From contig JAIXMN010000014.1 in assembly GCA_025716815.1 (NCBI GenBank), positions 744,001 through 808,000 of the forward strand: DNA of 64,000 nt, read 5' to 3'. The notes beneath the pieces were generated by a model. It was not told the origin of the DNA, ran no database searches, and saw only the letters and a list, made by a program, of their open reading frames with translations. Shown in pieces: positions 5,302-11,528 of this stretch; position 1 is the first letter of the stretch; the number at the start of each line of letters is the position of its first letter. The DNA is from Dichotomocladium elegans. Taxonomy: Eukaryota; Mucoromycota; Mucoromycetes; Mucorales; Lichtheimiaceae. A program made the translations under genes and the position numbers.

Positions 5302-7550
5302 TTATAAATCTAGATTGAATTCAGAGCCAAGGGATAACCTGGGTAGCATGATGTCTAAAGTTGGATGCTGTGGCTGCTCCTGCAGCGCAACGTATGCGGA
5401 TGAATGGGTGAGAGGCGGAGACGGATCAATAACCTCGTCATCACTGTCCTCAACATAGAGCTTTGTCATGCGATGGGCTTTCATGGATGGCTTTTGCGGC
5501 CGCGGGCGTGGAATCGGAGGAAGGTCAAGGTTGACATAGGGATTGGGGTCACCAGTTAAGGATTCGAGCCCTACCGGCCTGGGTTGAGGAAGAGGAGGAA
5601 GAGGCGATTGGGGTGGGGGCGGTTGCGCCGGTAAGGATGGTGCGGTAGTACTGGGTCGTGCGTAAAGTTGGTCGAGAAGTATTGTGGTTGGAGAAAGAAT
5701 AGCCGACGACGCGATGGTTGCAAGACCTGGGGATCGATCACCTCGATGGACAGTGTCAGACACAAAAGATTCTTCGGGAAGGGATGAGGAGGCTTCTTGC
5801 GGCATCAACACAGTGGACGCAGGCAGTCCCGGTGCTGCACTATAAACAACCGATGGTGGGCGGGATTTGAGGCAGTCATTGTTATCATCGGAGGAGTCGG
5901 TTGACGAAGACTCATTGTAGACTCTATCCAGTTGCAGAGATACTGCACGCGCCCTGTTCTTTCTGTTAAATTGTTCCGCCTTCTTTGTTCCGTTCGCAAG
6001 ATCGACATCGATTGGCCGGAGAATGTGTCGTTTACGCCTGCGCTGGGAAATAGGTAGGTCGGGCGCCGAGGTAGCTGGAGACACCAGCTGGCGCTGTTTA
6101 CTTGTTTGAGGTATGGCTAGATAATGTTGATGCTTGATTGCCTCTTGTCCTTCGCTGTACTGATGCGTCTCGGGCTTCTCGTTGTCGTTATCGTCTTCAT
6201 CTTCTTCATCGTCACTTCGTCGTGACATGCTGCTGAGGTCACAAGCAGACGCGAATTTCCGAATCGGGCCTGTCGCAGAAACCTTTTGCTCGTGCCGCCG
6301 CGGAAACAGGCGCTCTTCATCAAGACTATACTTGAGTTGGGGTTGCAGATGAGCCTGATTGCAGTGGGGGCGCCTCTCCGGGGGACTTGTTTCTAAGGTG
6401 GCTTTGGATAGACGGGCATACTTTTCTTCGAATGGGTATTTTGGCATGGGCTGAACAGGAACAGCAAGTTGGTGTGGAAGGGAGGTGATGATGATAGGTA
6501 TCTTTGCCTTGATGTTCTCGAATTGATGCTCAAATTGAAAGGTTACTTCGAGTTCGTGTTCGATGGTGACTAGAGGCGACTCAAGGGTCAGCGTGATCTG
6601 CTTCTGCAGGTTATGGCGGATGATTATAGGTCGGACCCACGTTGACCGCTCCTGGTCGCTATCGACCGAGTGTAGCAGGGCCGGTACAGTCCGCTTGACG
6701 TATCGCTTATGATTTCGGGTATTATTGCTCGAGATGCTATTGCTTCCCGAGGCTGCAGGGAAAATGATGTTATCGCCCATGTATTGCAATTTTCGATAGA
6801 CGTTTTTTCCGTCCGAGCTTTTGGCACATGTTAAAGACCTCTTTTTTTTTTTGGATACATGTCCGTGTAACGTTACCTATACACTTCAATCTGTCTCAGT
6901 TGAGTTCTAATCGCCCGGACCGATTTTTGCGATGCAAAGCAGAGGTATTTTACTGCAGCAGGAATAGATCCCTGCTCAAGGCTCACGATGCGAGGGGCCT
7001 CAATTTCGTAATGAAACCTTGCTGGGAAGGTATCCTGACAGATCTGTGTCTGCACGAGCGGTGCCATTTCGCGATAGCGTAACAAATGCCTGCGGACTTC
7101 AATCGGATATTCTGCGGTGATTGCCTTTTTCTGCAGTCCTACAGCAATGGAAAGCTCGATACGATAGGACACCGTGGCACGTTTGCTTTTTAGTGAAGGC
7201 GGATATATATTGGGTACTTCGAGGAGAAATGGAATGACATGTTCACCAGGAGGTAGAGTGGTTTTCGCAAATAGCACTTGTTTGAGCTTGGGGAGTATAG
7301 GCGTCTGGAGGTTAGTGCCTTGGAAGTTGGAGGTGGCCATGCCTTTAAACTTGACGGTTAGACCGCGGATCTTGATTGTCCGACTTAGTGAAAACAGAGC
7401 TTCGCCTTTGAGCATGATGCTGTCAGCCACTCTCGAGCAGGATGATCTATCGGTCTCGTCGGCAGTGGACGAGGCTTGCGCCCTGCCCATAAATTCAAGC
7501 ACTGTCTGAGAGGGTACAACCTCAACATACTTGATTCCGACATCCTTCAT
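5302..7550 (-). CDS. Arrestin-domain protein (alpha-arrestin / ART-like adaptor)
   Basis: Alpha-arrestins recruit Rsp5/NEDD4-type ubiquitin ligases to plasma-membrane transporters. The model has two exons, 7550-6877 and 6838-5302, encoding 736 aa. The N-terminal arrestin fold includes VVPSQTVLEF, LFSLSRTIKIRGLTVKFKG, a PPGEHVIPFLLEVP strand typical of arrestin_N, and a TVSYRIELSIAV block. The arrestin_C part follows with TWVRPIIIRHNLQKQITLTL and ITLTLESPLVTIEHELEVTF. The rest is long, low-complexity and proline-rich, with no certain PPxY seen (PPLP and PPPP tracts are present). The joining intron, 6876-6839, is only 38 nt and ends in an A-tract; without it a stop follows at once, so it must be spliced or the gene is broken. 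The gene is divergent from ALG12 with 294 bp between the starts. Confidence 0.85.
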
Positions 7551-7844
7551 GACTGAATGTTTGAATGAGAGGAACGGTGGTTAGAAATAGAAGAAAAAGA
7601 GGCGAGAAAATGAGCAAAGAGGGGGTGGAAGGAGAGGGAAGGGATTTACAACCTCCTCAGCTCTCTGCAATATAAAAGAAGGAGTTCAAGAGGAGGGGGA
7701 TGTGTGTGTATGGATAGATGCAAAAAAAAAAGAGAGAGATTGATAGATGGGGCTCGAGGTACCTAGCAGACATTCTGTGACACACTTCATTTTTATCCAG
7801 CCTTAGGGCGGGAGAGCAAGTTGTCTGTGAAAGAAAGAAAGCAT

Positions 7845-9672
7845 ATGAAGCTCCTCGTGTTCCTATTTATTGGGCTGTACTGCGTCCTCTGCCCGTACAC
7901 CAAAGTTGAGGAGAGTTTCAATCTCCAGGCCATTCACGATGTGATTCACTACGGTCCCGATCTTTCTCGTTATGATCATCTCGATTTCCCCGGAGTAGTT
8001 CCACGCACCTTTGTGGGATCGGTGATCATTGGTGCCATCAGCAAGGTGATCTTGTCCATCCCAAGAATTTACGAGTATGTTCCGGTGGATGAACAAGTAG
8101 TGGTGCGCCTTGTGCTCGGTGGGATTGTCTCGCTTGGTCTGAGCCGGCTTCAGATGGCAGTAAAGAAAGTGTACGGGTCGCGCGCCTCGACAGCCTTTGC
8201 TCTCCTGACATGTTGCCAGTTCCATATTCTATTCTGGTCTAGTCGCACGCTCCCAAACACGTTGGCTCTGCCCCTTGTATTGGCCGGTCTGGCAAACTGG
8301 CTCGAGAGTCTTGACGAATATACGCCACACACCCGCGCTGTCTATCATCGTCGCATGATCTGGTACATGACCATGGCGGGTATCGTGTTTCGCTTTGAGG
8401 CTGGGATCCTACTCGCCATTCTGGTAGGTCTTGAGTGGCTTGTCTACCAAACGCTTCCGCTCAAGACATGGCTATTGCATGGCGTGGCGTGTGCAATCCT
8501 GTCGCTTGCCTTGTCCGTCCCCATCGATTCGTTCTTTTGGCAGCGCTGTCTGTGGCCCGAGGGCGAGGTGTTTTACTTTAACGTTATCCTCAACAAGAGT
8601 AGCGAATGGGGCACAATGCCGTTCTATGCCTATTATGTGAATTTTCTGCCACGTCTTCTTCTGATCGCTTATCCCCTAGCTTTGATTTCCTATGTCACCA
8701 ACGGTCGTGTGCGTCGGATGCTCTTGCCGAACCTGCTCTATATCAACCTCTTCTCGATTCTCCCGCACAAAGAATGGCGGTTCATCATGTACACTATCCC
8801 TATCTGGACGATTGCTGCGAGCTCCCTCGTCGCATCGCTGCGCTCTCGTCTTAAACTGTTTCTGGTGATCTGTGGTGGTCTGGGCTCTTTCGCGGCGTCT
8901 TTGTTGATGCTATATGTATCGATACAGAATTATCCTGGCGGACATGCTCTGCGCCGATTGCATATGCTAGAGGACCCTGCGCATCCGGTCAAGGTACACA
9001 TCGATGTCCCGGCAGCGATGACGGGTGCGTCTCGTTTTGGAGAACTATTCCGACCTAGGTGGTCGTACTGGAAGACCGAGTCGCACATGGCGGTGGACGA
9101 TTATTTAGCAATGGAATACACACATCTTATCACGAGCCATCCTGAGCTGTTTTCGGACGCTTTCGAACCAATCGATGTGATATCTGGCTATGACGGTCTT
9201 AGGTTCCAGAGGCCTCGGATGACTGATGATTACACCACCCTCGTGCCCTTCAAAATTGATATCAGTCCAAAATTGACGATCATGCGGCTTCGAAATCCTC
9301 AAGTGACATGGGTCCAAGCAACATTAAGAAATAATCCGGTTGTGTTGTACAGTAAGACATACTGGTATGTGTAACATGGAACACTCAACAAAGGAAGATC
9401 CTCATGTTTATCCGTCTTATCTTAGTCCATACTGCCGACATGCCAAAATGATCTTGAACAAATATTGCAGCGATAACTACACAATTATCGAGGTAGACCT
9501 ACGACGAGATGCTCAGGAGATGAAGCAGGCACTATACGAAATTTCAGGCAGGCACACCTTCCCGAATGTCTTTGTTGATGGTAAAAGCATCGGAGGATCA
9601 GACGATCTTACCAAGCTGGATACGAGCAAACAACTCCAGAATTTACTGCCATGTTATGAGCATAATCGCTAA
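7845..9672 (+). CDS. ALG12: ALG12 alpha-1,6-mannosyltransferase fused to glutaredoxin
   Basis: The N-terminal ~495 aa are ALG12, the ER GT22 enzyme that uses dolichyl-P-mannose to add the eighth mannose to the N-glycan precursor. Family hallmarks are PYTKVEESFNLQAIHD, YDHLDFPGVVPRTF and the lumenal HKEWRF, with many membrane spans. The first in-frame ATG is at 7845. Exon 1 (7845-9364) runs without a stop into NNPVVLYSKTY and then a GTATGT donor. The intron is 9365-9425. Exon 2 (9426-9672) restores the frame and completes a dithiol glutaredoxin: CPYC at residues 507-510, then TFPNVFVDG and GGSDD. The spliced protein is 588 aa. If the intron is retained, translation stops three codons later and leaves ALG12 alone. 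An independent glutaredoxin transcript starting inside the ALG12 C-terminus (a Met precedes RLRNPQ) is the alternative. Confidence 0.9.
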
Positions 9673-10438: not shown

Positions 10439-11528
10439 ATGAATCACCTCGCGGTCTATGGCGGTGCAGGCGCTCTCGGCCGCACATTGGTCAACTACTT
10501 CAAGGAACGGGGTTGGGTAAAGTATCAATGCAACCACCGAAATAAGATTTACGCGATTACCATTCATATGGACTCACATTCTACTATAAATGACATTCTT
10601 ACCAAGTACGTGACAAATATTGATCTCATCGAGAACCCTGCAGCGAATGGCAATGCCCTCGTGAATTCAAAGGATTCGCTTGCGCAGCAGGCGGCTCATA
10701 TCGAGAAATCGCTTGCGTCTGTTCTAGACGGACATAAACTCAAGGCACTTTTCTGCGTTGCTGGCGGTTGGGCCGGCGGCAATGCCGCAGATAAAGGTAG
10801 GCGTGACTCACATTAGGCTGGATGCAGTATTAAACTCGGTAACAAGGGTTCCTGGACAGCGTGGAATTAATGATGCAGCAATCTGTCCACTCATCGGTCA
10901 TTTCGGCACAACTGGCGACGCGACATATGGGAAGGTACCAATAATATTGATGATCACAAAGGTTCGGCTAAAACGATTCTTCATGATCTAGAGACGGTCT
11001 CGTTGTCCTCACCGGTGCAGCTGCTGCGCTGGGTCCTACTCCAGGTATTGTTGTTTTTTGGTCTCATTTCAAACCAAGTATGACGGCCACTTATAGTGTA
11101 ATTTCTTCTCAAATATCAGGCATGATCGCTTACGGCATGGCCAAGGCATCCGTCCATCATCTTGTCAAAGACTTGGCCGTCGCAGGAAGCGGTCTCCCAG
11201 AGTCTGTAAAGACAATTGGTATTTGCCCGTACGTACAGCAACCCCCATTACGCAACTAGCATATCGCTAATGTGAAGATTAGGGTCACGTTGGACACCCC
11301 CATGAACCGCAAGAGCATGCCTGGCGCCGACTACTCTTCATGGACACCTCTAGAGGCTATTGCAAAGTAATGCTGTTTTATTACACATGTGGGTTGTTGG
11401 AAGTGAGTGATCCTGACAATAGATATAGACAATTACATGGGTATGCTACAGGCAGTGTTCCTGTCACCAACGGGAGCCTGATCGAGGTGATTACCAAAGC
11501 GGGCGAAACAAAATTTACCGAGAAGTGA
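10439..11528 (+). CDS. QDPR: Dihydropteridine reductase (QDPR-type short-chain dehydrogenase)
   Basis: Predicted to regenerate tetrahydrobiopterin from quinonoid dihydrobiopterin with NADH, which aromatic amino-acid hydroxylases need. Seven small exons: 10439-10516, 10607-10796, 10847-10934, 10992-11044, 11120-11228, 11283-11366 and 11429-11528, giving 233 aa (animal enzymes about 240). The nucleotide-binding start reads YGGAGALG. Next come [11 protein letters not shown], an [19 protein letters not shown] helix, [14 protein letters not shown] and the catalytic YGMAK. The diagnostic QDPR block [14 protein letters not shown], with SSWTPLE, closes the core. The last acceptor is ambiguous between 11423 and 11429; the latter gives a better match. 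The stop codon lies 21 bp from that of VAC7 on the other strand. Confidence 0.93.

Follow-up and report, generated by a model that had tools for sequence, protein, structure and literature searches.

Can a mannosyltransferase of the endoplasmic reticulum (ER) carry a redox domain of its own? The question is raised by a locus of the fungus Dichotomocladium elegans (Mucorales, Lichtheimiaceae), in a 64,000-nucleotide stretch of DNA (hereafter the window) within contig C29 (981,398 bases; genome 39.4 Mb). Two plus-strand exons between window positions 7845 and 9672 splice into a product of 588 amino acids. As judged from its sequence, this protein is an ALG12, a member of glycosyltransferase family GT22, joined to a class I (CPYC) glutaredoxin. 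Overall, we consider it likely that the single gene encodes a functional ALG12 bearing the glutaredoxin on its lumenal C-terminal domain, where it would act on lumenal thiols.

Domains of the predicted protein

The Pfam family Glyco_transf_22 matches residues 4–392 (150.6 bits, cut-off 23.8) and the Pfam family Glutaredoxin matches residues 499–562 (57.5 bits, cut-off 22.9); the NCBIfam profile GRX_euk scores 91.8 bits (cut-off 87.25). Residues 3–480 align with the structure of chicken ALG12 (9s6t), whose chain ends within a few residues of the point where the fused glutaredoxin begins, and structure comparison over the full length places the protein nearer to ALG12 than to ALG9. The nearest known enzyme system is ALG12 itself, the Dol-P-Man:Man7GlcNAc2-PP-Dol alpha-1,6-mannosyltransferase. 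The glutaredoxin domain follows the final ALG12 strand with next to no linker.

With the eukaryotic CPYC glutaredoxins (human GLRX2, 2fls; Chlamydomonas Grx2, 7ncv) the fused domain has fold, active site and the GRX_euk profile in common. Unlike them, it would be tethered to the membrane via ALG12, and it carries an additional cysteine pair, Cys521/Cys583. The C-x-x-C site, T-x-P and G-G-x-D are invariant in 15/15 aligned glutaredoxin domains, and the fused domain retains the glutathione-site residues. NCBIfam and PDB searches with the domain return many glutaredoxin classes, so that the class is not fixed by these searches alone; a single-sequence search with the glutaredoxin part gave no candidate with three shared words. 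The family OST3_OST6 was not among the four Pfam families found.

Conservation across two fungal orders

The homologue search listed 120 matches of the 2040 above threshold. Among those listed, at least 38, from at least 33 named species, carry both Glyco_transf_22 and Glutaredoxin, and they belong to the Mucorales and to two Umbelopsis species (Umbelopsidales). The in-frame joining of ALG12 to a complete glutaredoxin, proposed in the initial annotation, is thus borne out by the coordinates, the profile scores and the named species, and the fusion does extend to other Mucoromycota, as a search suggested there was to reveal. A further seven Mucorales entries among those listed carry no Pfam glutaredoxin mark (P0007, P0036, P0050, P0054, P0064, P0078 and P0060, the last a partial model). 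Seven outgroup ALG12s without a glutaredoxin (Jimgerdemannia, Rhizophagus, Acaulospora, Gamsiella, Mortierella, Dipsacomyces and a bird) terminate within about 15 residues of the fusion point. Since Jimgerdemannia (one sequence) is also a member of the Mucoromycotina, in the order Endogonales, the fusion in this sampling either postdates that split or has been lost from that lineage.

The alignment comprised 37 fused rows, namely the query, Cunninghamella P0078 and all but three of the 38 fused entries (P0001, P0053 and P0058 were dropped as species repeats), together with ten glutaredoxin-free rows. The segment between the final ALG12 strand and the first active-site cysteine measures 35 residues in 35/37 fused rows; the exceptions are Lichtheimia, with 36 residues, and a Syncephalastrum model that retains the intron. 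The glutaredoxin is conserved to the same degree as the enzyme part: over 34 rows (all but Cunninghamella, Syncephalastrum and P0016), mean pairwise identity is 55.6% in the glutaredoxin, 56.6% in ALG12 residues 171–380, 50.1% in the ALG12 lumenal tail and 42.3% in residues 483–498, and it is 55.3% in ALG12 residues 5–170 (19 rows). The first active-site cysteine is present in 35/37 rows, missing from the retained-intron Syncephalastrum model and from Cunninghamella, whose domain is degenerate. The second is likewise present in 35/37, the two misses being Cokeromyces and Benjaminiella, which read CPYS. We hold with good confidence that the domain is redox-active in most species.

Origin of the glutaredoxin domain

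Where did the domain come from? A tree lacking an outgroup places the fused domains between the Grx6/7 clade (99/92) and the group of plant and Grx1/2 proteins (100/99). When the tree is rooted on two CGFS proteins, they fall with the plant and Grx1/2 group (96/93), and a grouping with Grx6/7 is not rejected (approximately unbiased test, p-AU 0.291). The alignments comprise about 106 columns, with limited signal, and the two trees do not settle the parent class between Grx1/2 and Grx6/7. A single clade of fused domains is not rejected either (p-AU 0.4), and we argue for one origin of the fusion from the junction and intron that its members have in common.

Yeast Grx6 and Grx7 are membrane glutaredoxins of the ER and Golgi, and the TFPN and GGSDD wording of the fused domain is similar in standalone fungal relatives. 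Their sites are CSYS and CPYS, whereas the fused D. elegans domain has CPYC, with serine at the second position in 2/37 rows. For Grx6, a role in modulating glutathionylation within the lumen of the ER/Golgi has been suggested, and its dimer binds a [2Fe-2S] cluster (PMC5053157). D. elegans has a separate CPYS gene on contig C79 with a hydrophobic N-terminal anchor (by eye), which speaks against replacement of a lost secretory glutaredoxin by the fused domain. It also retains its own Ost3/6 with a CIPC site, which speaks against compensation for a lost Ost3/6 redox site. With both genes kept, the fused domain looks like an addition and not a replacement.

The additional cysteine pair

Cys521 is found in 34/37 fused rows and a cysteine among the last residues in 33/37. 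Both are present in 33 rows and neither in three (Rhizopus arrhizus, the Rhizopus-like P0027 and Cunninghamella); P0016 has Cys521, and its C-terminal end is cut. Among standalone-length glutaredoxins (120 matches listed of 237 above threshold), the C-terminal cysteine occurs in four of those listed, all of which resemble exon-2 frames of the fusion itself, and Cys521 in 1/120, a rough count scored on one automatic alignment column. In the glutaredoxin fold the last helix runs alongside the CPYC helix, and both finish at one pole of the domain. A structural disulfide between Cys521 and Cys583 is therefore plausible.

Predicted topology and function

On which side of the membrane would the domain lie? 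This question, left between ER lumen and cytosol in the initial annotation, resolves towards the lumen: in the topology model of PMC6801728 the ALG12 C-terminus is lumenal, and the enzyme works in the lumen on the lipid-linked precursor. Because of this published GT-C topology, and because the cysteine pair would suit an oxidising compartment, we consider the glutaredoxin domain very probably lumenal.

The gene would then yield one polypeptide, an ER-membrane ALG12 whose lumenal C-terminal domain continues directly into the glutaredoxin. On proteins of the lumen, the CPYC site would exchange thiol adducts and disulfides, or remove them, by means of glutathione. It would do so close to the place of N-glycan precursor completion, in a manner comparable to the thioredoxin-like domain of Ost3/Ost6 beside the oligosaccharyltransferase. 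Ost3/Ost6 (MAGT1/TUSC3) has a CxxC domain of thioredoxin fold that belongs to the N-glycosylation machinery and faces the lumen (PMC7563561), and it is to this extent a precedent for the fused glutaredoxin; it belongs to a different family, however, and is a separate subunit, whereas the D. elegans glutaredoxin is a fusion. We give slightly less than even weight to the suggestion that the domain targets other lumenal thiols (action in trans) and not ALG12.

The intron

Among the joins tried around the motif (introns of about 40–260 nt), only one GT-AG join restores the glutaredoxin motif. Exon 1 ends with the first two bases of the Cys507 codon, and splicing creates this active-site codon (TG|T), just as the initial annotation described. 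Its prediction of a stop three codons into the retained intron is also correct: the unspliced frame reads ...SKTY-W-Y-V-stop and would give 509 amino acids. Such a form was called plain ALG12, which is right as to the stop but not exact, since about 23 residues from the start of the glutaredoxin would follow ALG12 in this product.

Introns in this motif appear to be ordinary in the genome, since four D. elegans glutaredoxin genes have one inside the CPYC/CPYS codons: in the three standalone genes L005, L008 and L019 (the CPYS gene on contig C79) the offsets into the Cys codon are 4, 4 and 5 bases, and in the fusion the offset is 2. The shared motif, with these offsets, is no more than suggestive of a common descent of the fusion intron and the standalone introns. 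Mucorales-like and, by likeness, Umbelopsis-like frames (e.g. P0039, P0044, P0048, P0049) are all interrupted at one and the same codon, a pattern consistent with a single origin. Judged by sequence, the fusion intron is most likely ordinary and constitutively spliced.

Alternative explanations

Does the locus make one protein, two, or a choice between two forms? Because the frame is open, the junction conserved and both parts conserved, we infer a spliced mRNA and one protein, and we are highly confident that one true fusion protein is made. It is very improbable that annotators wrongly merged ALG12 with a downstream glutaredoxin gene. Met480 (window 9282) could serve as a glutaredoxin start in D. 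elegans, and models that begin at residue 171 exist, but the Met480 position is Met in 5/37 rows and the junction is devoid of any Met in 14/37; this lack of a conserved start speaks against a separate glutaredoxin gene. Moreover, no stop codon interrupts exon 1 of D. elegans from ALG12 into the domain, and the in-frame junction is constant across two orders. P0016 (579 amino acids on an 1823-base contig) resembles a full-length spliced cDNA; its fused frame is probably a spliced transcript, and its last residues look like translated sequencing adapter. The initial annotation further proposed that regulated intron retention toggles ALG12 with and without the redox domain. Retention would indeed usually give a stop near the splice site: among the 120 matches listed, 26 unspliced frames run into the intron, of which 21 terminate right at W, and in three the stop comes 2, 8 and 26 codons later. 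Two of these frames that stop, P0007 (Apophysomyces) and P0036 (Mucor lusitanicus), are deposited models and speak for the switch. But the stop is to be expected from the phase-2 donor alone (in this phase TG followed by GTAA necessarily gives W-stop, and GTATGTGTAA gives W-Y-V-stop), and two of the 26 frames, the deposited Syncephalastrum racemosum P0006 and the Syncephalastrum-like P0012, read through without a stop. In addition, 19 of the 26 come from the source 'lgn' and four from 'jgi', and plain genomic DNA ends in this way without retention. With the stop a by-product of the donor phase, and introns only 2–3 nt away in the same motif of the three standalone genes, we reject a designed splice switch as unsupported and regard regulated retention as highly unlikely.

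Given one fusion protein, could the domain serve ALG12 itself, or the structure of the complex? Regulation in cis, in which the glutaredoxin senses the glutathione redox state and alters the activity or stability of the mannosyltransferase, is unlikely. There is hardly any linker, the joint model of the Lichtheimia orthologue is confident, and fusion of a redoxin module to a redox-controlled target has been discussed as an evolutionary strategy (PMC2679010), but the fused proteins are not set apart by any new conserved cysteine in their ALG12 part (the commoner ones, fused versus unfused: position 16, 8/22 vs 4/9; position 124, 20/22 vs 6/10; position 305, 14/37 vs 1/10). A mainly structural role, or one in dimerisation through a bridging [2Fe-2S] cluster as in yeast Grx6, in place of oxidoreductase activity, is less probable still. 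The cluster in the Grx6 dimer, the CPYS variants and the degenerate domain still kept in Cunninghamella speak for this view, and the retention of the second active-site cysteine in nearly all rows speaks against it. Several observations weigh against the fused, redox-active protein that we favor. In Rhizopus microsporus (P0054), Sporodiniella (P0064) and Mucor mucedo (P0050) the protein model stops short of the domain, and Cunninghamella blakesleeana P0078 has lost the glutaredoxin active site and retained the ALG12 part, which together suggest that the domain is dispensable in some lineages. The deposited models of Apophysomyces sp. P0007 (523 amino acids) and Mucor lusitanicus P0036 (512 amino acids) stop at the intron. 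Eighteen fused models start at (16) or near (2) a Met equivalent to residue 171, which could conceal a 5'-truncated transcript; among them is the deposited D. elegans model P0001, identical to residues 171–588, although the D. elegans frame is open upstream of Met171 (window 8355). These starts are probably propagated annotation and possibly an internal transcript start. The fused domains do not form one clade in either tree (2 changes), those of Phycomyces and Spinellus being nearer to the plant and Grx1/2 group (85/92 unrooted, 82/95 rooted). Finally, the Cys521–Cys583 disulfide is proposed from the co-occurrence of the cysteines.

Features of the locus

The coordinates are collected in Table 1. 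Upstream lies a divergent minus-strand neighbor (window 6873–7580), whose N-terminal domain is arrestin-like and whose weak match to Rgp1 stays below the cut-off. Downstream, a plus-strand frame (window ~10440–11500), apparently with several introns, has a weak epimerase-like match below the cut-off; by eye it is presumably akin to dihydropteridine reductase. An Rfam scan of the window gave no match.

Table 1. Predicted features of the ALG12–glutaredoxin gene in window coordinates.
Feature	Position	Strand	Evidence
Exon 1: complete ALG12 alpha-1,6-mannosyltransferase (residues 1 to ~480–482) and glutaredoxin helix 1/strand 1	7845..9364	+	reading frame, Pfam, structure alignment
Start of glutaredoxin domain, from residue 484, NPQVTWVQATLRNNPVVLYSKTY	9294..9364	+	alignment; structure evidence on Lichtheimia orthologue
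Intron, 61 nt, phase 2, GTATGT...TCTTAG, splitting the Cys507 codon TG|T	9365..9425	+	frame and join trials
Exon 2: remaining glutaredoxin (PYC, TFPNVF, GGSDD) and stop codon	9426..9672	+	frame, Pfam, NCBIfam
Cys510, second active-site cysteine; Ser in Cokeromyces and Benjaminiella	9433..9435	+	alignment
Cys521, end of CPYC helix; proposed partner of Cys583	9466..9468	+	alignment
Cys583, near C-terminus; co-present or co-absent with Cys521	9652..9654	+	alignment

Significance

The ALG12–glutaredoxin architecture is already present in public protein annotation; in the open-access literature searched we found no paper describing the fusion. Multidomain glutaredoxins are known (Trx-Grx, Prx-Grx and a glutaredoxin fused to a pyridine-nucleotide disulphide oxidoreductase; PMC2679010) and are, like the D. 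elegans domain, fused to another protein. Section 7 of that 2009 survey of glutaredoxin domain combinations names no glycosyltransferase fusion, and neither 'mannosyl' nor 'glycosyl' occurs in its main text.

What may the fusion mean for these fungi? A tentative and rather unlikely possibility is that the Mucorales and Umbelopsidales have a second redox arm of N-glycosylation, in which the ALG12 glutaredoxin would link the ER glutathione pool to the end of precursor assembly, through clearing of adducts on nascent glycoproteins or through gating of the Man7-to-Man8 step. To our knowledge, the role of glutathione and glutaredoxins in the ER lumen is poorly settled. Covalent attachment of a glutaredoxin to an established enzyme of lumenal glycosylation would provide a defined place to study it, and conservation over two fungal orders, apparent losses and a monothiol variant would provide natural controls. 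Thus, the fusion points to a previously undescribed link, as far as our search goes, between redox state and N-glycan assembly in this fungal group.
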